Below, in pieces: positions 24,827-60,645 of a stretch of DNA of 64,000 bases (positions are counted from its first letter, which is position 1; every line of letters starts with the position of its first letter). Both the position numbers and the translations under genes were made by a program. The notes under the pieces were generated by a model. That model searched no databases. It was not told the DNA's origin and saw nothing but the letters and a program-made list of their open reading frames with translations. The stretch is from Porphyra umbilicalis (Eukaryota; Rhodophyta; Bangiophyceae; Bangiales; Bangiaceae). Location: assembly GCA_002049455.2 (NCBI GenBank), contig KV918860.1, positions 124,001 through 188,000 of the forward strand, read 5' to 3'.

Positions 24827-27409
24827 TCAGACCCGCCCCCCCCCCTGCCTGGGACGACACGTAGCGGCCGACGCCGCCCCCCCCCCCCCCCCAACGCCGA
24901 GGCCGCCCATCTGCGCCGCCAGCGCCGCGTCCGCGTCCATCCCCCGCGCCGCCACCCACCCGTCAACGTCGGCGAGGAGTTTGGCGAGCACCTCCGTCTC
25001 CTTGGTGTAAAACGTGAGGCCCTGCGTCAGGAAGCCGTGGAGCTCCCGCGCCGCCGCCGCCCCGTCGGCGGCGGCCACGACGCGGGCGCGCAGGTCGGGG
25101 GTGTTGCCCCCGTCGGCGCCGCCGCCGCCGCCGCCACCGCCGCTGCCGTCGCGGTTGGCCGCAGCGGCGGCGCGGCGGAGCTCCACCACCCCCGCGTCGA
25201 GCGCCTCGGCGGCGGCGCGCGCGTCGGCCGTCAGCCGCGTCGCGTGGTCGTGCGGGCGCGCCAGCGCGGCGGCGGCGCGCGCGCGCGCCCACTCGTGGCG
25301 GGCGGGCCCGCCGGCGGGCGCGTCGGCGAGGCCGGTCGGCCGGCCGGTGGCGGCGCGGAGTTCGGCGGCTGCAACCGCGTCTTGCCCGGCCGACAGGATT
25401 GACCGCGCCGACGTGAGTTGCGGGTGGAGGCGGTCGAGGCAGCGCGACAGCGCCGCCGCGGGGTTGTCGTCCTCGTCGTGCGGCGCCCGCCCGCCGCCGC
25501 TGCCGAGGCCGCCGAGGCCCAAAAAGCCCCCGCGGTGGTGGTGGTGGTGGGGGTGGGCGCCGCCGCCGGCCGCCCCGCCGCCGGCCGCGTCCTCGTCGGC
25601 GGTCACGCGGGACAAGTCGCCGAGGTCGTCGAGGCGGGCCAGCTCGGCCCGCCGCGACGCGAGGCGGTCAACGACAAACGCGTCGCTGCGGGCGGCGGTG
25701 GCAAGCTCCCCCCGGATCCGCTCGAGGGACTCGACGTAGGGGCGGTTGAGGTCGGCCGACGCGGGGCGGCGGAGCGCGCCGCGCGAGTCGGCCTTGGCCC
25801 GCTCGTCGGCGGCCGCTTCGCTGGCGAGCGAGCGCTGGACGGTCGCCACCTGGTAGTTGACCTTTTGGGCCATGGACGAAACCTGCCGGGAGAGGTCGTC
25901 CAAGCCGCGAGCGCCGCCGGCGGCGACCGCCCACTTGACCGTGTCTAGCACCTCGGCCGGCAGGGGCGGGCCCGCCTCACCCCGCCCGCCGCCGCCGCCG
26001 CCGCCGTGGGAGCGCAGGGCCGGGGAGGACGTCGCGTCCGCAACGACCGAGTCAGCCGCCGCCAACGACGCCGACAGCTGCCCGTACGCGTCGCGCAGCC
26101 CGCGCGTGTCCGTGTCGACCATGGCCTCTGTCAAGACCGCCACCTCTGCCGCCGCCGCCGCGTCGTTGCGCGCCGCCTCGGCGCGCGCCTCGGCAGCCGC
26201 CCCGTCGGGCGCCACCCCGTACATGGTCCGCGTGTCCGCGTCGGCCCCCGCCGCCGCGCGCGCGCGCGTCGCCCCCGACAGCAGCGCCACGGTTTGCGGG
26301 TCGGCGCCGTCGGTGCCGACCGCCAGCGCGTCCACGTCGGCGGGCGCGACCGCCACCCGCGCCTCAATCGTCGGCAGCGTCGCCGACGCGGTCTGCAGGT
26401 AGATGCTGCGGTTTTCCAGGTCCGCCCGCTCCCGCCGCGCGGTGAGCGAGCCCTCCAGCGCCGCCACCCGCTGCAGCAGCGTATCCCCCACCGCCGCCCG
26501 CGGCGGCAGCCGCTCCCGCACAATCTCCCGCGCGTCGGTGAGGGCGGTGGACGCCTCCCGCAGGTGGCCCAGCTGCGCCGCCATGTCGTGCCCCGCGTCC
26601 GCCACCGCCGCCATCCGCGCGTGCGCTTCGGCGGCAAAGAGGCGGGAGGCGGCCTCGACGGGGGCGGCGAGCACCTCCCGCACGCCGAGGTCCCCCGCGA
26701 GCGCCCCCGACGCGCAGTGCGCGGCGGTGGCGTCGAGGAGCTTGACGGCGCCGGCGGCGAGCTTGGCCGCCAGCTCGTCCGACACCTTGGCCCGCGCCGC
26801 GACGCGGTAGTAGGCCATCTGCGCGTTGGCCAACATGACCGACCGCAGCGCCGCGAGGCCGTCTGACGACAAGTCGACGGTCACGTCGCCGGCGGCAATC
26901 GGCGGCGGGGCGGCGGCGAGGTGGCCGAGCAGCCCCGCCGCGACTTTGAACGCCTTGAGCGCCGCCTTGTGGCCTTCGGCCGCCGACGCACGCGCGTCGG
27001 CGGCGCCCGCGGCGGCCGTCGCGACGGCGAGGTTGACGAGCACGGCCGCCCGCTCAAAGGAGAGGAGCGCGAGGGCGACCGATCGGGTCGGCGCAAACGC
27101 GTCGGTCCACGGCAGCCGCGCCTCCACGCTCGCCGCGTGGGGGAGAAACACGTTGAGGGAGGCGATGTAGGCAGACAACACGCCCGTGCCGCCGTCGGCG
27201 AGCGTCGCGCCGGGCGCGCCGGCGAGCACCGCCGACAGCGACGCCGCCTGCGTGCGCTGCGCGTCGAGGCCACGGCACGCCGTCTCCAGCTGCCCGGGGT
27301 GGAAGGCGCCCGCGGGGAGGGCGCGGAAGAAGGCGGCGCCAATGTCGACGGGTTGGGTGGCTTTCCCCCGCGTCAGAATGTAAAAGGGGGGGGAGGAGGA
27401 GGACGCCAT
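24827..27409 (-). CDS. ALIX: ALIX/BRO1-domain ESCRT-associated protein
   Basis: 860 residues in one exon, close to the ~870 usual for ALIX. The start at 27409 (MASSSSPPFYILTRGK) directly begins the BRO1 domain, about residues 1-380: QPVDIGAAFFRAL, ERAAVLVNLAVATAA, AHARMAAVADAGHDMAAQL and similar helical segments. Then a long Ala/Asp/Arg-rich helical region, about 400-800, fits the V-shaped domain of ALIX. BRO1 domains bind ESCRT-III subunits and act in multivesicular-body sorting, membrane abscission and repair. The usual long proline-rich tail is not visible. C-runs near 24836-24846 and 24876-24892 make the C-terminus ambiguous. The same frame after the TGA runs on to a Gly/Phe-rich GFFGGFRGNHRTHGQY stop at about 24711, which could be the true end. 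Confidence 0.88.
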   Translation of the reverse strand: MASSSSPPFYILTRGKATQPVDIGAAFFRALPAGAFHPGQLETACRGLDAQRTQAASLSAVLAGAPGATLADGGTGVLSAYIASLNVFLPHAASVEARLPWTDAFAPTRSVALALLSFERAAVLVNLAVATAAAGAADARASAAEGHKAALKAFKVAAGLLGHLAAAPPPIAAGDVTVDLSSDGLAALRSVMLANAQMAYYRVAARAKVSDELAAKLAAGAVKLLDATAAHCASGALAGDLGVREVLAAPVEAASRLFAAEAHARMAAVADAGHDMAAQLGHLREASTALTDAREIVRERLPPRAAVGDTLLQRVAALEGSLTARRERADLENRSIYLQTASATLPTIEARVAVAPADVDALAVGTDGADPQTVALLSGATRARAAAGADADTRTMYGVAPDGAAAEARAEAARNDAAAAAEVAVLTEAMVDTDTRGLRDAYGQLSASLAAADSVVADATSSPALRSHGGGGGGGRGEAGPPLPAEVLDTVKWAVAAGGARGLDDLSRQVSSMAQKVNYQVATVQRSLASEAAADERAKADSRGALRRPASADLNRPYVESLERIRGELATAARSDAFVVDRLASRRAELARLDDLGDLSRVTADEDAAGGGAAGGGAHPHHHHHRGGFLGLGGLGSGGGRAPHDEDDNPAAALSRCLDRLHPQLTSARSILSAGQDAVAAAELRAATGRPTGLADAPAGGPARHEWARARAAAALARPHDHATRLTADARAAAEALDAGVVELRRAAAAANRDGSGGGGGGGGADGGNTPDLRARVVAAADGAAAARELHGFLTQGLTFYTKETEVLAKLLADVDGWVAARGMDADAALAAQMGGLGVGGGGGAASAATCRPRQGGGRV

Positions 27410-27443
27410 GGTCGCGGCCGCCGTGCGGCGGGCGCCAACCAAG

Positions 27444-27463
27444 AAAAAAAAAAAATGGTATAG
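27444..27463 (-). promoter_or_regulatory. CTATACC plus T12 tract upstream of ALIX gene
   Basis: On the minus strand CTATACC (27463-27457) is followed by twelve T (27455-27444), 35-55 nt before the ALIX ATG. Similar T-tracts occur at 35157-35187 (+) and 51139-51161 (-). It may be a core-promoter or transcript-start element, but the sequence alone does not prove this. Confidence 0.35.
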
Positions 27464-27995
27464 AAGAGAGAGGAGGGCGAGGACGGCAAGATCACAAGTC
27501 GGATAAGGGGAAGGCGAGGCGACGGCGCACCGCCGCGGGCGTCGACGAGGAGCACACACCCTGGTGAGCCGCGGTACAGAGAGGCCTGCTTTGCGAGGAC
27601 GTGGCCCTGACGGTCTGTCGGAGCGGGGGGGATCCGCTGGGGCCAGCAGGCCCACAAGCGTGCGTGCAAGCCGCTTCTTGGCTGGCGATTGGCAGGTGCA
27701 CACCGCCGAGACGCATTGCTGTGTTGCACCGACCTGTTCCTGCTTACAGCGGTGATCACCAACATGGTGCAAGTCGCTTCGCCAGCCTGTCGCCGTGTTG
27801 CTCGCTCGTACAGTGTCTGGATACAGTACAGGCGCCCCACTGTGGGCTGGGCGCCACTGTTTGACGTGAATCAGAGGAGCGCGCCTTTCATGAGCAACAA
27901 GGAGGATGCCGACCCGACCCACCGCGCACAAACAATCGACAACCACATGTGTGCCATCCACACGCACTTCACCACGGCGCCGCGGGCCGCCCCAT

Positions 27996-28517
27996 CTACG
28001 CGGTCGACTTGGCAAAAGTGATGACATACCCATTCACAGGGTCCCTCACCGTCATCTCGCGGACACCATACCACTCCGTGACGGGCTCCCGTAGCACCGG
28101 CACGGTCGACGGCAGCGCCGCCCGCGCCGCGTCCGGGTCGACGCCCCGGATGTAGACAATGGCGGTGCCTCCCAGCGGGCCGTCCGTTGGGAAGACTGAC
28201 GCCGGGTAGTGCACATGCAGCGCGGGGATCGACGCGCGGGCCTCGAGCATGAGCATTGCCGCGTCGCGGCGGAGCATGGCAAACGCCACGCCCGCCACGT
28301 CGGCCGCGTCGGCCGGCACGCGGGAGCGGTGTGCGTCCAGCAGGGCGACGGGGGTGAAGGCGAGGCTGGCGTAAAAGGCGAGTGAGGCCACCATGTCGTC
28401 GACGAGGAGCACGACCTGGATGGCTTCCGCGGTGGACATGGGGGGGGCGGGGGCGCCCGTCGCGGCGGGCGCATTGGCGGCAGCCGGGGGCGTGGTGGCG
28501 TCTGTGTCGGTGGCCAT
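27996..28517 (-). CDS. VOC/glyoxalase-fold protein
   Basis: 173 residues. After a ~28-residue Ala/Pro/Thr-rich leader, the chain shows one vicinal-oxygen-chelate unit: AIQVVLLVDDMVASLAFYASL (beta strand and helix with AFY), AFAMLRRDAAMLMLEARAS, GTAIVYIRGVDPDAARAAL, and the final VREMTVRDPVNGYVITFAK, a classic end with DPxGYxI. Such proteins include glyoxalase I, dioxygenases and bleomycin-resistance proteins and usually work as dimers with a metal. The metal ligands cannot be assigned from one short sequence, so the reaction is unknown. It lies upstream of the ALIX gene on the same strand with a 587-nt gap. Confidence 0.85.
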   Translation of the reverse strand: MATDTDATTPPAAANAPAATGAPAPPMSTAEAIQVVLLVDDMVASLAFYASLAFTPVALLDAHRSRVPADAADVAGVAFAMLRRDAAMLMLEARASIPALHVHYPASVFPTDGPLGGTAIVYIRGVDPDAARAALPSTVPVLREPVTEWYGVREMTVRDPVNGYVITFAKSTA

Positions 28518-29494: not shown

Positions 29495-31165
29495 TCAAAC
29501 GACCAGCGGCCCGCGCGGCAACAGCCCCGCCAGCCGCGACGCCTCGGTCAGGAATCCCCCCAGCCGCCCCCCCCCGACCGCGTACAACGCGCGCAGGGGC
29601 GTCAGCGCGGCGGCCGCCACGCGCGGCTCCACTGCCGTCGTGTAGGTCGACGTGACAATGCCGTCGACGAGGATCGACCCGTCGACGGTGTGCGGGTTGA
29701 AGAGCCCCGCCCCGCGCCGCGTCGCGACGCGCGCCACGACCGCCGCCGAGCCGTCGGCGCGGAGGAGCACGTCGCCCACGGCGACGGTGCTCGCCGCCGC
29801 CATCCGCCCATTGACCGACAAGTAGTGGCCGGGCGTCAAGCGCAGCGGGCGCTCGTGCGCGGCGCACGCGTCGGCGGCGGGGGCGCCGACGGTCAACTCG
29901 ACAAACGTCGACGCTGCGTCCGCGTCGGCGTGCGAAAAGGCAAATACGTCGGAGAAGCGGCCGCCACCGACGGCGACGGCGTCGCCGACGGCCAGGGCGT
30001 CCATGCGCACTGCCTCACCCGACGCGAGCGTCACCGTCGCGTCGGCGGGGAAGCAGGCCGACTCGTCGGGCGTCGGCGTGGGCGTCGGCGTGGGCGTCGC
30101 GGGCTCAATGGCAATCGGGAGCAGCACACCGTCAATGATGTGGAGGACGCCGTTGGTGGCGTTGACGTCGGTCACCGTCAGCTTGGGGTCAGCCACCGCG
30201 GGGGCAGCGTCCATCAGCATCACCCCATCAGCCGCAAGCGTCACGTAGGGGCCCGCCAGCGGCATGAAGCCACCGGCGGCGACCACGTCCGAGGCCCGCA
30301 ACTCGCCCGCCGCCACATGGTACTGGAGGATGGTCGATAGCGTTGGGATCGGGTCACCCCCGCCCAGGGTGGTCAGTTCGGCAACAATTGCTTCATAGGC
30401 TTCCGTCACGTTGGTGCCCTCAAAGCCGAGCGTCTTCGCGAGCGACACAAACGCCGCGTTGGTCGGCGCAAATACGGTGAGCGACGCAGTTGCGTTGGCT
30501 ACCACGCCGACGAGGTCCGCCGCCGTCAGCGCGGAGAGGAGAAGCGAGAAGTCGGGGTTGCCCACGACCAGCCCGGCGATGGTCGTCGGCTGTGGGGTGC
30601 CAACGCGGATCGGCAGCAGCACACCGTCGATGAGGTGGACGATGCCGTTGGTGGCGTTGATGTCGGTTTGCGTCAGCTTGGGGTCTGCCACCGCAGGGGC
30701 GGCGTCCATCAGCGTCATCCCATCACCCGCAAGCGTCACGTTGGAGCCTACCAGCGGCATGTAGCCACCGGCGGCGACCAGGTCCGTGGAACGCACTACG
30801 CCGGCGGCGACGTGGTACTGGAGGACGGCGGTGAGCGGCGGGATCGGGTCCCCGCCGTTGAGCCCAGCGAGCCCGGCTACGATTGCATCAAACGCCGCAC
30901 TCGTGTCGTTGCCCTCAAAGCCGAGCGCCTCTGCGAGCGACACGAATGCTGCGTCGGTCGGCGCAAACACCGTGAGGGAGGCGTTGGGGTCGGCGACCAC
31001 GTCGACCATATTGGCAGCGGTCAGCGCGCGCACCAGCAGCGACAGGTTGGGGTTGCCGCTTGCGATTTCGGCAATCGTCATGGCCGAGGTCGTGGCGGTC
31101 GCTGCTGCGACGGCGACGGCGGCAGTGGCCGCCGCCAGGGCTGATGCAACGCCAAAGCGGGCCAT
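29495..31165 (-). CDS. Secreted FAS1-FAS1-Hint (hedgehog-type) protein
   Basis: 556 residues. The start at 31165 begins an Ala-rich signal peptide (1 to ~27). Two fasciclin domains follow (about 28-188 and 193-352), each with LTVFAPT[DN]AAFVSLA, LQYHVAAG and a closing NGIVHLIDGVLLPI-type strand; they are close duplicates. A Thr-Pro linker (357-366) leads to a Hint domain (371-556). The domain opens with CFPADATV at Cys371, like the CFPG.ATV start of hedgehog autoprocessing domains. It has GRFSDVFAFSH, LTPGHYLSVNG (TxxH at 444-447) and NPHTVDGSILVDGIVTSTYT. Hint domains cut the chain at the Cys through a thioester. The hedgehog SCYA-type cysteine is Thr here. The ACF junction suggests the FAS1 part may be released, perhaps modified. 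Probably an extracellular adhesion protein. Confidence 0.92.
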   Translation of the reverse strand: MARFGVASALAAATAAVAVAAATATTSAMTIAEIASGNPNLSLLVRALTAANMVDVVADPNASLTVFAPTDAAFVSLAEALGFEGNDTSAAFDAIVAGLAGLNGGDPIPPLTAVLQYHVAAGVVRSTDLVAAGGYMPLVGSNVTLAGDGMTLMDAAPAVADPKLTQTDINATNGIVHLIDGVLLPIRVGTPQPTTIAGLVVGNPDFSLLLSALTAADLVGVVANATASLTVFAPTNAAFVSLAKTLGFEGTNVTEAYEAIVAELTTLGGGDPIPTLSTILQYHVAAGELRASDVVAAGGFMPLAGPYVTLAADGVMLMDAAPAVADPKLTVTDVNATNGVLHIIDGVLLPIAIEPATPTPTPTPTPDESACFPADATVTLASGEAVRMDALAVGDAVAVGGGRFSDVFAFSHADADAASTFVELTVGAPAADACAAHERPLRLTPGHYLSVNGRMAAASTVAVGDVLLRADGSAAVVARVATRRGAGLFNPHTVDGSILVDGIVTSTYTTAVEPRVAAAALTPLRALYAVGGGRLGGFLTEASRLAGLLPRGPLVV

Positions 31166-36686: not shown

Positions 36687-39600
36687 TCAGCCGTGGATGG
36701 ACAGCGGCCGGCAGCGGCAGTTGGTCAAGTCCACGTCCATCCCCAGCCGCCGGCACGTGTTGCCACGCTGCACCGGGCACATGGGCACGGGCAACAACAC
36801 GCGGCTGACGACGTGCACGACGCCGTTGAGCGCGCGCAAGTTGCCCGGCGCAATCTGCGCAATGCCCCGAATGCCCGGCGCGTTGTCGCGCAGCTGCAAC
36901 CACGGTTGGATGCGGAGGTCCGTTTGGTCCGCCGTCTTGACCGTCTTGTTCATGAGCTCGGGGGTGCGGAGCATCCCCGGCAGCAGGTGGTAGTTGAGGA
37001 TGCGCACGAGGAGGGGCAGCGGGTCCCCCCCGCCGAGCACCGTGAGGGTGTTGAGGAGGAACGCCCACGCGGCCTGCCCGTTGGCCTGGTTGGCGGGGAA
37101 GCCGAGCGCGACGGCCAGCTGCAAAAAGGCGGCGTTGGTCGGCGCAAAGACGGTCGTGCCGCCGCCGGCGTTGGCCAACGGGCCGAGCATGCCCGCCGTT
37201 TGGAGGGCGGCAAAGAAGAGGCCAAAGTCGCCGGCGCCCGCGAGCATCTGCGCGACCGTTTGGGAGCCGGGCGGCGCCAGCCCCCAGCCGGGCCGCAGCG
37301 GACCGAGCGTCGCCGGCTGCGGTGGCATGGTCGGCGGCTGCGGCATCAGGGGCGGCAGCGGCGGCTGCCCGGGCATGACCTGCCCGGGCACGACTGGCCC
37401 GGGGAGGACCTGGAAGGGCACGGCGGGCCCGGGCTGCCGCGGCGGGGGCACTTGCTGCCCCGGCGGCGGGGGCGCTTGCCCCGGCCGTGGCGGCACTTGC
37501 TGCCCCGGTCGTGGGGGCACTTGCAGCCCCGGCGGTGGCGGCACTTGCTGCCGCACGACCGTGGGGAGGCGCGCGGGGAGGCGGATCTGCCCCGGCAGCA
37601 TCGGGCCGACGGCCGGGGCGACGCGCGGGAAGATGGGCCCGCCCGGGAAGGTGGGGATGACCTGACCGGGGAACTGCTGCTGCAACTGCTGCTGCTGGAA
37701 CGCCTGCTGCTGCTGGAGCGCCTGCAGCTGCTGCGGCGTCATCTGCCCATTGTTGAAGGCGCCCACGCCGCCAAAGCCGCCAAAGCCCGGGAGGCCGCCC
37801 CACCCGCCGACGCCCCCAAAGCCCGGGACGCCGCCGGCAAAGCCCGGCGGGAGGCCGCCCCATCCACCGACGCCGCCAAAGCCCGGGACGCCGCCAAACC
37901 CACCAATGCCCCCAAAGCCCGGCGGGAAGCCGGCGCCGGTGCCGCCCCAGCCGCCAAACTGGCCGCCCCAGCCGCCGAGACCCCCAAACTGGCCGCCCAA
38001 CCCGCCGAGGCCGCCCAAGCCGAGCCCTGGAGGCAAGGGGCCAAAGCCGCCCCCAAACGGCAGGCCGAACCCGCCGCCCAACCCCAAGCCGCCGAGACCG
38101 CCAAGGCCGCCAAAGCCGCCGAGACCGCCGAGGCCGCCAAGGCCGCCAAAGCCGCCGAGACCGCCGAGGCCGCCGAGGCCGCCAAAACCGCCGAGGCCGC
38201 CGAGGCCACCACCAAGGCCGAGGCCCCCCCCGAGGCCGGGGAAGCCCAAGCCGCCCCCGAGGCCGGGGAAGCCGAGGCCGCCACCGAGGCCGCCACCGAG
38301 ACCGGGGAAGCCAAAGCCACCACCGAGGCCCCCCAGCCCCCCAAAACCGAGCCCCCCGAGGCCCCCGAGACCCCCACCGAGACCACCGAGCCCCAGACCC
38401 CCACCGAGGCCAAGGCCACCCAGCCCCAAGCCGCCCAACCCCCCCAACCCCCCTAGGCCCCCCAAGCCGAGGCCCCCGAGGCCGCCCAGACCGCCCAAAC
38501 CGCCAAGGAGTCCCAAGCCCGTCAAACCGCCGCCGAGGCCGACGCCGCCGAGGAGCGCCGGCGAGAGGGGCCCCGGAAAGGGCAACAGCACCTGCGCGGG
38601 AAAGCCCGGTATGCCGGGTGACGGGGGGGGCCGCGGGGGCGTCTGCACCTGCCCCGGCCACTGCGTCGGCGCCGGCGTCATGACCACGCCGGGCGGGCGC
38701 ACGGGGGGGACGCTCGGCGGCTGGCCGGGCACCAGCGGCGGCGGCTGGCCAGGGAGGCCCGGCACCAGCGGTGGCAGCTGCCGCTCCGTGGCTTGCAGAC
38801 GCACCCGCCGCGGCAAAAACGGGAACTGCCCCGGGAACTGCCCCGGGAACTGCCCCGGGAACTGCCCCGGGAACTGTCCCGGGAACTGCCCCGGGAACTG
38901 CCCCGGGAACTGCCCCGGGAACGGCTGCTGCGGGAACTGTCCAGGGAACGGCTGCTGCGGGAATTGCCCCGGGAGCTGCTGCTGCGGGAAGACCCCCGGC
39001 TGCTGCGGGAACTGCCCCGGGAACTGCCCCGGCAACAGCGGCTGCTGCGGGAAGACCCCCGGCTGCTGCGGGAACTGCCCCGGGAACTGCCCCGGCAGCA
39101 GCGGCTGCTGCGGGAACTGCCCCGGGAAGACGCCCGGCTGCATCGGAAGCTGCCCCGGGAAGACCCCCAGCTGCTGCGGGAACATCCCCGGCTGCGGCGG
39201 GAACATCCCCGGCAGCGTCACAACGCGGCCGCCGCGCACCGCAAACGGCAGGAGCACCCCATTGATCGTGTGGATGATGCCATTCGACGCGCGCAAGTCG
39301 GTCGTCCCAAACGTCGGGTCGGGCATCCCCGGCGCCCCGTCAATGAGCGACCGCCCGCCGCGCGCAATCATGACGGGGGGCCCCGAGAGCGGCCGAAAGC
39401 CGCCCGTCGCCGTCAACTGCGCCGCCGTCAGGGCGCCGGCGGCGACGTGGTGTTGGAGGATGGACGTGAGCAGCGGCGCGGCGTTGCCCCCCGCCTGCGC
39501 GGCGAGCACCTGGGAGATGCGCTGGAAGGCGGCCTCGGGGTTGGAGCCGATGTACCCGAGCGCGTTGCCGAGGCGCACGAACGCGGCGTTGGTCGGCGCA

Positions 39601-39791
39601 AACACCGTCAGGCGCGTCGCCGGGTTGCCAACGACGGGGAGGAGGTTGGTCGACGAGAGGGCGCGGACGAGGAGGGTAAACTCGGGGTGGTTGCGCGTCA
39701 GGTCCGCAATCGTGTTTTGGGCGCTCGCCGCCGTCGCCGAGGCGGCGGCCACGACCGCCGCCGCGAGGGCGGCGACGCGGAAGCGGACCAT
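36687..39791 (-). CDS. Secreted FAS1 / PGQF repeat / Gly-rich / FAS1 protein
   Basis: 1034 residues in one exon. A signal peptide (1 to ~24, ending ASA) precedes the first FAS1 domain (~25-185: RLTVFAPTNAAFVRL, LQHHVAAG, NGIIHTINGVLLPF). Then come Pro/Gln/Phe-rich repeats (~195-322) with FPGQ and FPQQP units, a Pro-rich spacer, and a Gly-rich block (~411-695) of GGL, GGF and later GGW units. A Gln-rich segment, another Pro/Gln stretch and a second, divergent FAS1 domain follow (~842-1003: TTVFAPTNAAFLQL, LNYHLLPG, LNGVVHVVSRVLLP). The tail has four Cys (1005-1027). FAS1 domains mediate adhesion; Gly-rich and PGQ-rich arrays are typical of elastic or silk-like structural proteins. I infer a cell-wall or matrix protein. 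The repeats keep antisense frames open. Confidence 0.9.
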   Translation of the reverse strand: MVRFRVAALAAAVVAAASATAASAQNTIADLTRNHPEFTLLVRALSSTNLLPVVGNPATRLTVFAPTNAAFVRLGNALGYIGSNPEAAFQRISQVLAAQAGGNAAPLLTSILQHHVAAGALTAAQLTATGGFRPLSGPPVMIARGGRSLIDGAPGMPDPTFGTTDLRASNGIIHTINGVLLPFAVRGGRVVTLPGMFPPQPGMFPQQLGVFPGQLPMQPGVFPGQFPQQPLLPGQFPGQFPQQPGVFPQQPLLPGQFPGQFPQQPGVFPQQQLPGQFPQQPFPGQFPQQPFPGQFPGQFPGQFPGQFPGQFPGQFPGQFPGQFPFLPRRVRLQATERQLPPLVPGLPGQPPPLVPGQPPSVPPVRPPGVVMTPAPTQWPGQVQTPPRPPPSPGIPGFPAQVLLPFPGPLSPALLGGVGLGGGLTGLGLLGGLGGLGGLGGLGLGGLGGLGGLGGLGLGGLGLGGGLGLGGLGGGLGGLGGLGFGGLGGLGGGFGFPGLGGGLGGGLGFPGLGGGLGFPGLGGGLGLGGGLGGLGGFGGLGGLGGLGGFGGLGGLGGLGGFGGLGGLGGLGLGGGFGLPFGGGFGPLPPGLGLGGLGGLGGQFGGLGGWGGQFGGWGGTGAGFPPGFGGIGGFGGVPGFGGVGGWGGLPPGFAGGVPGFGGVGGWGGLPGFGGFGGVGAFNNGQMTPQQLQALQQQQAFQQQQLQQQFPGQVIPTFPGGPIFPRVAPAVGPMLPGQIRLPARLPTVVRQQVPPPPGLQVPPRPGQQVPPRPGQAPPPPGQQVPPPRQPGPAVPFQVLPGPVVPGQVMPGQPPLPPLMPQPPTMPPQPATLGPLRPGWGLAPPGSQTVAQMLAGAGDFGLFFAALQTAGMLGPLANAGGGTTVFAPTNAAFLQLAVALGFPANQANGQAAWAFLLNTLTVLGGGDPLPLLVRILNYHLLPGMLRTPELMNKTVKTADQTDLRIQPWLQLRDNAPGIRGIAQIAPGNLRALNGVVHVVSRVLLPVPMCPVQRGNTCRRLGMDVDLTNCRCRPLSIHG
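38050..38560. repeat. Gly-repeat-coding tandem array (GCCGCC[GA]AG type)
   Basis: Nine-base-type units (CCGCCGAGG, CCGCCAAAG and variants) encode GGL/GGF on the minus strand. Variants differ mostly at third positions or by Leu/Phe swaps, consistent with selection on the Gly-rich protein. Confidence 0.8.
38820..38925. repeat. 12-bp tandem array coding PGQF
   Basis: About nine near-identical copies of CCCCGGGAACTG, giving Pro-Gly-Gln-Phe on the minus strand. The uniformity, including identical third positions, points to recent expansion. Similar but more diverged units continue to about 39130. Confidence 0.85.
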
Positions 39792-56539: not shown

Positions 56540-58964
56540 GTCCGAGTGGGCGGCGGTAATGCCGGCAGCGCGCGTGGGCGGATCGCGTGCGACCCCGTGG
56601 GAGCTGCCCCTGTGACCGCGGGCGCGCAACGCGGCGATCCCCGTCTGACGGGCGCGGCAAGGCGGCGCACGCGTCTGGCCAGGACTTGCGCACGCCCCAG
56701 CTAGGGGATCCACATAAGCAAAGTGGCGGCCGACATAACCCTGTGACCCACTCTGGCTGTCGGTGCAGCCTCGAGTCAGCCGCGCCTTTGCGCGCCCGAG
56801 GGCCTGCACGACAGGCGATTGGGGGTCAATTCGTTGTCGGATCGGACGAGGCGCTGGCACGAAGATGCATGACCGCTATCAGGAGGAGCGAGTTCATCTC
56901 TCTTCTTTTGAAAAGTGGACCAGACGTTGATCGCCCCATCGTGAGGCAACGAGGAGCAACCGTCCTTCCACTGACCACGACGCCAGGCACGTGGCGGTGG
57001 GGGTGCCCATTGGCCACTCATGACTTCCGAAAATCAGGTCCAGATCCATACAGGAGTGGAGCTTGGCTATGTTCCCTGCTGTCAGCACCCGCCAGGAGTG
57101 CGTCATCCCTGGGGCACCGAGTTGGCAACAACCCCACCAAAGAAACGGAGACGGCCCGATCAGCGAAAATCAGGCGAGGTCCAGCAGGGACGAGCCCCGC
57201 CTGGAGGCTACGTACAGGAAGGCGCTCGCACGTCGCGCGGGAGGAGGCTGGCTGGTTGCCGGTCTGTGTGGGGCCGATGCGGGTGGGACGTCCGGACATG
57301 TGAGACGTGGTCGGCCCAACAATCCAAACAGTCGGGGGTGCACACGGGTCCTACTGTACAGTAGCCAGCACGCTACGGACCTTCTCCGACGGTCGGTTCA
57401 CCATGGAGGGAAATCCCGGAGACTAGATAATAATGTCAGTTTCTCATTGGCAGATGGTTGCTGTCAGCACCGCGCCGGTCATGGCGCACAGCCACTCGTC
57501 TTCGAGCCACCTCGAGCGGGTAATCGTAGACTGTTCACTAGAAGGCGATGGCTAGTGTGGTAGCTTCGCTTTGGCTAATGTCAGTTTCTCATTGGCCATC
57601 GGTCCTCGTCGGTCGATAAAGCCGACGCTTTTCCCATTGGATGTATGGCGAGATTATGGCCCCCTGCCACAACCTCTGTCGGGGGCAACAGGGGCCACGG
57701 CTGTTGACTCGCCTGCGCCGACTCGGACCCCACACAGCTCCCACGTGGATCTGCCGCTACAGACGACGAGTCGCCCGGTTGGCAATCGTTGTTGGCAATG
57801 GGGCGTGGCAGGCGCCGAGGCTCCGCGCGCCTCACCGTCGAAATCACACCGGACCTGCAGGAGGGGTTGTGGGAGCCCCCGCCCCGCCCACCCGCCTGTG
57901 CGACTCGCCTGTCTTGCTGGTTGGCGTCCCCGCCTCACGAGGCGGCGTCTGCTGCTTGCCCCCTTTTTCTCGCATGGCATCCGGCTGGCGGCTGCGCGTG
58001 GCGCCGTGTGTCATTTCAACGCCCTGGCACACCTGGGAGGGGCGGACCACTCACCGACAGATGCAAACATGCTGTTTCTTTGGTATACAGTAGAGTGTGG
58101 ACGCGAGGGGTGCGGCACTGCCCGGGCGCGAGGTAATTGCGGGGCGGCTCATTCTGCCCCAGAGTCGCCCCCGTTTACTCCACCATACGACGTAGGGTGT
58201 TGTCTCCTCCGCAGACGGTGGGTTTCACGAAGCGGCAACCGTGCGTTGGCACCAGCGGTCATGGTCCTAGCACCCGAGCGGAATGCGGTTCGTCCGCCCC
58301 CGCCGCCGCGCAAGGCCCGACCAGCCGCAACGGGCCCACTCGTCGCCCTGCCTCGTGGTGCCTCCCTCCACATCACAGCGGGGCTGCGCTCCCGCCCTCG
58401 CCGCGGCGCCCGCGGTCCGCGTGCTGAACGTCGGTGGTGTCCAACGGGATTGTTCGATCCCTATTGGCGCATTGCTGGGGGCGTCAAAGCACGCCCCTGA
58501 GTGGTGCGCGTCGCCCGTGCCGCCCTCGGCGGGGTGGGCGCAGCACCGTCACCGTCGGCCCGGTGCCCGCCGGGCCTCTTGTTCGGGCTATTCGCGGCTA
58601 CACCTCGACAAGGGCACATCTGGCTTGAGGCACCGTCTTGAATCTCTTGCACCATCCGCCTCGTCCAGCCCCTGCTGGCACCCGTTTCTTTCCCGCCCCG
58701 GCTCTGCCCGACACGTTGTTGGCCGTCGGACCCATTGGTTTGGGTGGCCTGCAGCTCCCGACAGCCCCACCGCCAGTGCCCGTCCCCATCCGTACAAGCA
58801 GACGAGCGTGCGCGGCACGGTCGTTGGTGCCGACCGTGCCGCACACGCTCCAGTGCACGCCGTCCCGCTCACACCCGTCCGCAAGCCGCTCCTGGGACGG
58901 CGCACCGTAGGAGGACGCCCCCGCCCGTCCAACCAGCCGCTGACATCCCAGCCGCGGCCTCGAC
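56540..58964. other. Intergenic, no gene seen
   Basis: Balanced composition. Contains a 21-bp direct repeat (57431-57451 and 57576-57596, TAATGTCAGTTTCTCATTGG). ORFs at 57571-58500 (+) and elsewhere show no recognised domain. Confidence 0.4.
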
Positions 58965-59514
58965 TCACATAGCAGGGCTCCAACAAAGCAAGCGCGATAC
59001 GGACCACCGTCTTTCGCAGTACACACACGGCGACGACCGTTGGACCCCCCCCCCCCCCCGCCTAGGCGCCCACGCCGCCCCCCCCCCCCCCCGCTCCCAC
59101 CGCACGACCGCCGGGTCGCGGCCGACGCCGACCTCGACAAACGCCGCCGCGCGGAGCAGACACGCGTCACAACGACCGCACGGGCGCCCCCCCGCCCCCG
59201 GGTCGTAACACGAGTGCGTCGCCGCATAGTCGACGCCCAAGCCCAAGCCGACGCGCACAATGTCCGCCTTGGACAGGTGCAGCAGCGGCGCCTCAATGGC
59301 GACGGGTGGCCCCCCCGACACGGCCGCCTTGGTCGCGAGCGCCGCCAGCGGGCGCCACGCGTCAAAGTATTCCGGGCGGCAGTCGGGGTACCCCGAGTAA
59401 TCCACCGCGTTGGCGCCAATGACAATGGACGACGCGCGGGACACTTCGGCGAGGCCGAGCGCGTAGGCGAGGAAGATGGTGTTGCGCGCGGGGACGTAGG
59501 TGTTGGGGATGGCG

Positions 59515-59555
<41 letters not shown>

Positions 59556-59902
59556 GCCGGCGGCGGCGGCCACGTCCCGGTCCTTGGGCACGACCAGGTC
59601 TGGGAGGTCCCCCGGCGGCACCCCCACCGCCGCGGCGGTGGCCCCCACCCCCCCGCCGGGGTGCGGAGGAGGGAGGACCCCCCAAAGGCCCCCAAATCAA
59701 TGGTCGCCACCCGGTGGTCCTCCACGCCGGGGGAGGCGGCCGCGAGCGCCGCCGCCGCCGTCAACTCGTGCCGGTGCTTTTGGCCGTAATCAAAGGCGAG
59801 CGTGCGGACGGCGGCGCCCGACGCGAGCGTCATGGCGAGGGCGGTGGCCGAGTCGAGGCCGCCCGAGAGGAGGACGACCGCTCGACGGACGGGGGCGGCC
59901 AT
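58965..59902 (-). CDS. queC: QueC, 7-cyano-7-deazaguanine (preQ0) synthase, frame slip in a G run
   Basis: QueC makes preQ0 from carboxy-deazaguanine and ammonia with ATP, a step of queuosine synthesis. From the Met at 59902: RRAVVLLSGGLDSATAL (PP-loop ATPase motif), FDYGQKHRHE and ATIDLGAFGGSSLL. In the next frame, after the C run 59648-59654 (G on the coding strand), come IPNTYVPARNTIFLAYALG, NAVDYSGYPDCRPEYFDAW, APLLHLSKADIV and the zinc site SCYDPGAGGRPCGRCDACLLRA with four Cys. One more base in that seven-base run would join both parts, so this is probably one intact gene with a miscounted run, or a recent frameshift. A Gly tract (about 59517-59560) interrupts the middle. The frame is open above 59902 and could add a targeting peptide. 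The C-terminus beyond VEVGVGRDPAVVRWE is uncertain because of C runs. Confidence 0.8.
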
Positions 59903-60645
59903 GGCGCGGGGGGGGGGAAGGGGGAGGAGGGGGGCGGGGGGGGGGGGGGGGAGGGGCGTTCCCCGTGAGTGGCACAAGAGGCCACGGGCGGTGGCGGCAC
60001 GCAGGGGAGGAAAAAAAAGGGGGACGCCCGCGCACGAGGGTGCCGCAACCATGGAAGGGGGGGGAGGCAGGCGACTGGCAGCTGACAAGGCGGCCGCCAG
60101 ACAGCCCACCGGTGGCGAGAGGCCAGCGGCAGCGGCAAAGACGGAGCGCACAGGCAGCGCGGCGCGGCGCGCACACGTCGGGGCGACGGCGGCGGCGCCC
60201 GGGCCGGAAAAAGGCGGCCGGCCGCGCGCGGGCGCCCCGCCGCGGTGGATCACGCCCGCGCTGGCGGGGCCCCGCGGGGCCCCGCCGCCGGCGACGCGCG
60301 GCGCGCCGCACCGGAAGCAGGGCGGCGCTGTCCTGTAAGCCCGCCACGGATCCCCCCCGTCGCGCCGGCCGCCGCCGCTCGCGCGGCCGCGCCCCCGATC
60401 CGGCGCGCGCCCCCCCCCCGCCCCGCTGCTGCTGGCGTGGCGCCCCGGCGGGTTGCCGTTCCCCGCCCGCTGTTGGTGTGCTCTTGCACCCCTCCCCCCC
60501 CCCCCCCCCCCCTAGCTAGGCCCCCGCTCCCCTGCGCTACCCCGTTTCACCCGGTCGGCCGCTGCGCCTCGCGGCGTGCGGCGGGTGCGGGTCCCCGCAA
60601 CGGCCCGCCCGCCGCGCCGCCGGCGGTGACCCCCGCCGCCCCGCC
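59903..60645. other. Divergent intergenic region
   Basis: About 740 bp between queC (-) and the Ser-rich gene (+). G runs at 59938-59951, an A8 run at 60011-60018 (T on the queC strand) and a C run at 60493-60512. Possibly a shared regulatory region. Confidence 0.4.

Follow-up and report, generated by a model that had tools for sequence, protein, structure and literature searches.

Two FAS1 domains joined to a hedgehog-type Hint module in a red alga, with a possible role in C-terminal lipid anchoring

What does a hedgehog-type autoprocessing module do at the end of an adhesion protein of a red alga? Intramolecular transfer of cholesterol to a protein is described as having been seen only in hedgehog proteins (PMC7242414), and the function of Hog proteins outside animals is described as unknown (PMC13353863). 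The question is raised by a gene of the 64,000-nucleotide stretch of DNA analysed here (hereafter the window), which encodes a protein that begins with a hydrophobic stretch, continues with two FAS1 domains and a Thr-Pro linker, and ends in a Hint module (Table 1). The features that the first-pass annotation had described in this segment were recovered in a frame of the minus strand, the strand not having been given there; a plus-strand reading was discarded, frame 1 having two stops and no such protein.

Table 1. Window coordinates of the FAS1-Hint gene, its parts and a comparison gene.
Feature	Position	Strand	Basis
Whole FAS1-Hint gene (556 aa, single open frame)	29495..31165	minus	ATG at 31165, stop at 29495-29497
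Signal-peptide-like, Ala/Val-rich N-terminus, residues ~1-28	31082..31165	minus	sequence and crude hydropathy scan
FAS1 domain 1, residues 40-185	30611..31048	minus	Pfam Fasciclin
FAS1 domain 2	30116..30556	minus	Pfam Fasciclin; 68% identity with FAS1 domain 1
Thr-Pro linker EPATPTPTPTPTPDESA, residues 354-370, ending in Ala370	30056..30106	minus	sequence
Cys371, Cys1 of the Hint module, expected site of the N-S acyl shift	30053..30055	minus	alignments
Hint module, residues 369-530	29576..30061	minus	Pfam match
His412, in the position of the general base of fly Hh, Asp303 (D46)	29930..29932	minus	phmmer and hhalign
Thr444-Pro-Gly-His447, TxxH motif	29825..29836	minus	hhalign
Thr507, in the position of the SCYA Cys of animals (C400/C143)	29645..29647	minus	family alignment
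Residues 513-556, a short stretch following the Hint core, with motif-K-like VAxxxLxPLR; putative region for adduct recognition	29498..29629	minus	hhalign, tail start opposite fly SLAHWGLAPMRLL
Hint-free FAS1 gene nearby, for comparison; two FAS1 domains and a Cys-rich tail	36687..39791	minus	Pfam and sequence

Both the FAS1-Hint architecture of this gene and the size of the Hint family to which it belongs are firmly established. As the earlier reading had predicted for a profile search, Pfam recognises Fasciclin (PF02469; E 3.2e-36, 124.7 bits against a gathering score of 22, in two stretches reaching 64.2 and 63.3 bits singly) and Hint (PF01079; E 1.2e-19, 71.2 bits against a cut-off of 29.7); these are the only two families above the cut-off, and the Hedge signalling domain of hedgehog proper is absent from the Pfam matches of the protein. 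The two FAS1 domains had been called near-duplicates, in keeping with the extent of their identity, which was computed over 159 codons. The nearest solved relatives are mainly TGFBIp and periostin for the FAS1 part and the hedgehog Hint for the C-terminus. All eight N-glycosylation sequons fall in the FAS1 part and there are two cysteines only, Cys371 and Cys434; the motifs CFPADATV, LTPGH and DGSILVDGIVTS reported earlier are all present, with Cys1 being residue 371. For the signal peptide assigned in the same annotation, a crude hydropathy scan shows a hydrophobic, Ala/Val-rich, signal-peptide-like start. Structure prediction from the single sequence reached a low mean pLDDT of 33.6, and the GC content of the window ranges from 58 to 79% in 4-kb steps.

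A paralogue of the same architecture is found at C145:130538-132283, being 70% identical to the window gene in the FAS1 part (dN 0.20, dS 0.65) and 77% identical in the Hint part (dN 0.16, dS 0.44). The existence of this copy, together with dN values of 0.16-0.20 against dS values of 0.44-0.65, argues that the window gene is real. Compared with its two nearest paralogues, the window Hint part shows purifying selection (dN 0.12-0.16, dS 0.44-0.51). At a distance of about 46 kb, the contig of the window carries a sister gene with FAS1 alone (C100:200774-201928; 77% identity over residues 1-193). This sister and the comparison gene of Table 1 share a Cys-rich end (CxxxxxxxCRR...CRC) in place of the Hint module, which points to alternative C-termini within that FAS1 family. 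Near the FAS1-Hint gene, the window also encodes a BRO1/ALIX-type ESCRT-associated protein (24830-28033, minus strand); further away, in a minus-strand frame at 58598-60253, a 74-residue stretch matches QueC of the 7-deazaguanine/queuosine pathway on this nuclear-type contig, the remainder of the frame being without QueC match.

The Hint module is widespread in the genome that includes the window (83.8 Mb, 665 contigs). At E <= 0.01 the search retrieved 81 rows, merging into 78 distinct loci, which is a lower bound, as is the number of 16 FAS1 domains counted in the same genome. Hint cores were read for all 78 loci, 27 of them in long stretches (the window gene, 20 and 6 others) and 51 in short ones, the core being split between two frames in five. 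Cys1 is a Cys in all 70 loci with this stretch aligned (eight are not covered) and the His of the TxxH motif is present in 77 of 77, the T position being occupied by Thr in 29 and by Ser in 48. At the place of D46, the general base of hedgehog, every one of the 77 readable loci has His (one locus is not covered). The pattern of Cys1, D46-place His and TxxH is still uniform when the family is reduced to 57 clusters at 70% identity and to 32 at 50%, with this His in 57/57, 47/47 and 32/32 clusters at 70%, 60% and 50% identity, respectively. The SCYA place is more variable, Cys occurring in 5 of 76 loci and Thr in 39, and the residue before Cys1, which is Ala in the window protein, is Gly in none of 70 loci; a Gly-Cys junction precedes the Hint of Hh (PMC9163320). 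Two residues past the SCYA place, Thr509 (window 29639-29641) is invariant in 75 of 75 loci; the same column has Ala in fly and Sonic hedgehog.

The assignment of His412 to the D46 place was obtained by two routes. In phmmer alignments it faces the D of both 1AT0 and 6TD6 and the H of 6TYY, and hhalign of a 15-row profile against the fly sequence puts it on D46 in the same register, with 98.9% probability and with the TxxH motif and the first motif of the tail also aligned. The phmmer scores of the window protein are 25.5 bits for 6TYY, 25.4 for 6TD6 and 20.9 for 1AT0; given that 6TD6, whose chain is longer and has Asp, scores about as well as 6TYY, the edge of the latter proves little. In the fly protein D303/D46 activates the sterol, and the D303A mutant retains DTT cleavage and loses full cholesteroylation (PMC9163320). 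The engineered D303H variant (6TYY) keeps cholesterol transfer, its structure being within 0.4 Å and its pKa and catalytic efficiency retained, and tolerates a wider range of sterols, with activity increased >200-fold on coprostanol and >300-fold on epicoprostanol (PMC9163320). Therefore, with His everywhere at the D46 place and an engineered His known to keep cholesterol transfer, a sterol acceptor stays open. The first-pass annotation had missed the change from Asp46 to His and had argued from the Thr in place of the SCYA Cys that the nucleophile may be something other than a sterol. The substitution itself is there, but it is not decisive, since few loci have Cys at this place and its replacement in red algae was reported in 2008 (PMC2362128). 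Furthermore, Cys1 and the downstream Cys are able to pair in a disulfide, which hints at a function in folding (PMC8529194). Since it is D303/D46 that activates the sterol and D303H keeps the transfer, while the disulfide of the SCYA Cys hints at folding, the argument away from a sterol is unsound; as judged from these alignments, the D46-to-His swap would tell more about the acceptor than the SCYA Cys-to-Thr change.

From the architecture, the selection acting on it, the catalytic residues, the uniform His and the size of the family we infer the following course of cleavage, acceptor choice, anchoring and replacement of GPI. The gene would encode a secreted two-FAS1 adhesion or matrix protein whose precursor ends in a Hog-type domain, consisting of Hint plus a short adduct-recognition tail. 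In the secretory pathway Cys371 would attack the carbonyl of Ala370 in an N-S acyl shift, and self-cleavage before Cys371 is likely; the earlier proposal of a FAS1 ectodomain attached to a hedgehog-type autoprocessing domain outside animals is borne out to the extent that Cys1 and the T/S-x-x-H motif are intact. His412, where hedgehog has its general base, would then activate a small alcohol taking over the thioester; this alcohol would most likely be a sterol of the membrane, chiefly cholesterol in red algae. The FAS1 part and its Thr-Pro stalk would thus be left with Ala370 as new C-terminus and an ester-linked lipid on it, and be held at the cell surface, the lipid occupying the position of the GPI anchor of plant fasciclin-like proteins and the Hint part being discarded. 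The same Hint module may serve tens of other secreted proteins of the alga. Taken as a whole, from the cut before Cys371 through esterification to a small alcohol, most probably a sterol, to a lipid anchor replacing GPI, we give this explanation an even chance of being right.

The tail after the Hint core bears directly on the nature of the acceptor. It comprises about 44 residues, and its start aligns by hhalign with the first SRR helix of hedgehog. The Pro matching SHH P379 is found in 59 of 73 loci and the Arg matching SHH R381, a residue needed in cells (PMC7242414), in 58 of 73. On the other hand, the place of SHH H374 is taken by Ala in the window protein (His in 23 of 74 loci), that of F377 by Leu, and the HWY motif of the second SHH helix is not seen in the sequence of the tail. 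The SRR of SHH has 100 residues and SHH is functional without the loop between the two helices, Y435 in the HWY motif being needed (PMC7242414). Therefore, with a short tail, no HWY, Ala at the H374 place and Leu at the F377 place, a sterol site has the standing of a candidate; the acceptor is likely to be small and hydrophobic, with a sterol as the candidate.

The same short tail, devoid of HWY, would also suit a simpler autoprocessing in which water opens the Hint thioester and a soluble FAS1 part is released to the matrix, the tail then acting as a folding or targeting element. The FAS1 genes without Hint in this alga fit such a release, as their sequences show no other obvious anchor, which indicates that FAS1 proteins do not need one. 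However, hydrolysis leaves the retention of the motif-K-like Pro and Arg in most loci without a reason, as it does the base position, which is never lost in the family and is not required for thiol-driven cleavage, as seen with fly D303A; we regard it as rather unlikely.

The esterification of the FAS1 part to a sterol has to be viewed in the context of the lipids available to the alga. FAS1 proteins of plants commonly carry a GPI anchor, a role in which the Hog module may stand in here. By its sequence, the C-terminus of the window protein is the Hint tail. Plant FAS1 proteins have been called membrane-anchored (PMC13353863) and AGPs can be GPI-anchored (PMC3797821), and a 2013 survey described GPI-anchor synthesis as 'apparently missing in the Rhodophyta', PIG-A being absent from the red-algal genomes analysed there (PMC3797821). 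In the genome studied here, none of four GPI families (PIG-A, PIG-M, Gaa1 and peptidase C13) was matched, against six of the seven other families searched; the controls were prokaryotic genomes, three of the four families being matched in one or two of them and Gaa1 in none. Profile searches found the cyclase N-domain and ERG4/ERG24 reductases, and no match to the cyclase C-domain (PF13243) in the genome; a search that misses the C-half of the cyclase while finding its N-half can miss genes, so the GPI negatives are weak. Cholesterol is the main sterol of red seaweeds (PMC5104453, PMC10817344), and the annotated sterol pathways of red algae are incomplete (PMC10817344). Three Patched-family loci are present in the genome. 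They were set aside as exporters of sterol-modified proteins, since proteins of this family occur in many eukaryotes for other reasons.

Expression data from Cyanidiophyceae address whether the module would act at a membrane or at the wall. There, FAS1 proteins are expressed chiefly in the diploid cells, which have a wall, and 8 of 10 Hog genes in one species have their main expression in haploid cells, which lack one (PMC13353863). The two parts therefore do not go together in these algae, and FAS1 expression lends the pairing of FAS1 and Hog no support; the Hog pattern suits a role at the membrane better than one at the wall. This pattern weighs against a second alternative, namely covalent attachment to the cell wall, in which a hydroxyl of a wall polysaccharide or of a matrix partner takes the thioester and Hint becomes a built-in cross-linking enzyme. 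Such a role would agree with the association of FAS1 proteins with walled cells in Cyanidiophyceae, with the wider acceptor range of D303H, with the diversity of heads that carry the module, some of them having repeats or acidic stalks, and with the invariant Thr509; yet Pfam found no polysaccharide-binding part in the module, and we consider wall attachment improbable.

A Hint module that has lost its activity, leaving the protein uncleaved, is very unlikely. Some of the 78 loci do look broken or split, as with the cores in two frames and the unaligned Cys1 stretches counted above, but the window gene keeps all catalytic positions and its Hint part is under purifying selection. Intein-type protein splicing, suggested by the Hint fold common to inteins (PMC9163320), has a negligible probability and is ruled out by anatomy, as the frame ends at residue 556, some 44 residues past the core, leaving hardly any C-extein, and Pfam Hom_end_hint reaches only E 0.18.

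FAS1 and Hint are joined in two genes of the genome, the window gene and its C145 paralogue. An all-against-all comparison of the parts before Cys1 in the 27 long loci, two of which were left out for want of a readable head, gave clusters of 6, 5, 3, 3, 2 and 2 plus four singles, one of the clusters of two being FAS1. Pfam was run on 20 of the 26 long loci other than the window gene: the cluster of five is DOMON-like, with DOMON itself matched in one member (C159) at E 3.4e-5, below cut-off, and C21 (L045:1764-4250) carries an imelysin M75 domain in two stretches (E 4.2e-30) in one frame with Hint. The nearest relative of the window Hint (82%) belongs to C260, whose head is from the DOMON-like cluster. 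Unrelated heads thus carry near-identical Hint tails. In a Hint tree of 75 of the 78 loci (rows <120 residues left out) the Hints of the window gene, C260 and C145 group with support 100/98, and that of C145 pairs with the DOMON-like C260 Hint (99/80); the FAS1 tree comprised 13 of the 16 domains, without C222 and two of the five C493 domains. Constraining the two FAS1-Hint genes together was not rejected (p-AU 0.18), so our claim is limited to at least one exchange of heads among the three genes; a single origin of both FAS1-Hint genes, against which the 99/80 pairing speaks, was not retained, yet it is compatible with that p-AU.

Several loci illustrate how the family is arranged in the assembly. 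Seven Hint loci (L073, L078, L080, L085, L086, L092 and L095) lie within 20 kb at C243:31984-51783, a local expansion; in L080, L092 and L095 the Cys1 stretch falls outside the aligned part. Near-identical Hint cores occur across contigs, with L061 on C4 matching L062 and L068 on C257, and L039 on C327 matching L040 on C41; these are recent copies or assembly duplicates, so that 78 counts loci and not necessarily genes. At L030:2768-5284 (C573) the Hint frame continues without a stop into a thymidylate kinase domain, probably two adjoining genes in one frame.

As to the host, phycobilisome genes are present on contig C665 (185 kb) of the same genome, and the best PDB match of their phycocyanin beta chain is 6kgx, from the red alga Porphyridium; we take the genome to be red algal, which would fit Bangiales. 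A bacterial or viral origin of the FAS1-Hint fusion was dismissed, scans of viral contigs, bacterial and archaeal genome contigs and phages having returned no Hint relative. With the whole protein as query, 98 plasmid records gave a match; in no record did a single place cover 80% of the query, and among the best 10 of the 98 the matches lie within residues 37-353 only, in the FAS1 part. Since scans of this kind detect only close relatives, more distant kin of the Hint module may exist.

The window protein resembles several known systems without coinciding with any of them. With animal hedgehog Hog (Hint plus SRR; 1AT0, 6TD6 and 7E2I) it shares a C-terminal Hint in a secreted protein, Cys1, TxxH and a motif-K-like start of the tail, and differs in having FAS1 instead of Hedge, His for D46, Thr for C143, Ala instead of Gly before Cys1 and a short tail without HWY. 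The His at the general-base place likens all 77 readable copies to the engineered fly D303H (D46H, 6TYY), which is a laboratory mutation in an animal domain, whereas here it is the natural state of a whole family. In plant fasciclin-like arabinogalactan proteins, too, FAS1 domains sit at the cell surface and the C-terminus provides for anchoring, by a GPI signal in their case and putatively by Hint in ours. Red-algal Hog proteins that are not Hh were already known from Chondrus, Griffithsia, Porphyra and Gracilaria, with motifs J and K present and Ser, Thr or Asp taking the place of the Cys in motif J; fasciclin is not mentioned in that report, and a blast search there, using an upstream region conserved in two Porphyra sequences, had no hit elsewhere (PMC2362128). 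The choanoflagellate Hoglet and Glomus GIN1 are likewise fusions of an N-terminal domain to Hog outside animals, their N-terminal domains being different (PMC2362128). Closest in layout are the Kelch-Hint genes of Cyanidiales, multi-copy and with another domain followed by a Thr/Pro/Ala-rich linker and Hint; they carry Kelch in place of FAS1 and are subtelomeric, the K, T and H domain genes adding up to around 12-24 copies (PMC9812998). Lipid modification has been mentioned in print as a possibility for Hog proteins (PMC9812998, PMC13353863). In the open-licence papers searched, we found no FAS1 or fasciclin domain with a Hint domain; the uniform His and the connection to GPI stand in none of the texts seen, and the His may show in the alignments of the 2008 report.

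What sets this locus apart is a FAS1 cargo, of a well-understood type that often has a GPI anchor in plants, tied to a Hog domain present in dozens of copies, in a mainly-cholesterol lineage reported to be without GPI, and with a catalytic His at D46 already characterised as a working swap. It is tempting to speculate, as a tentative and rather doubtful generalisation, that red algae lost GPI and came to use Hog for general C-terminal lipid anchoring, the approximately 78 loci of this genome with their natural His base providing for the esterification of many secreted proteins, FAS1 adhesion proteins included, to cholesterol or to a wider set of sterols. If true, proteins would be ligated to sterols beyond the animal kingdom, and on the scale of a proteome. 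Protein lipidation work would also gain a His-type transfer domain of natural origin, and the role of Hog domains outside animals becomes testable by a single expression experiment.
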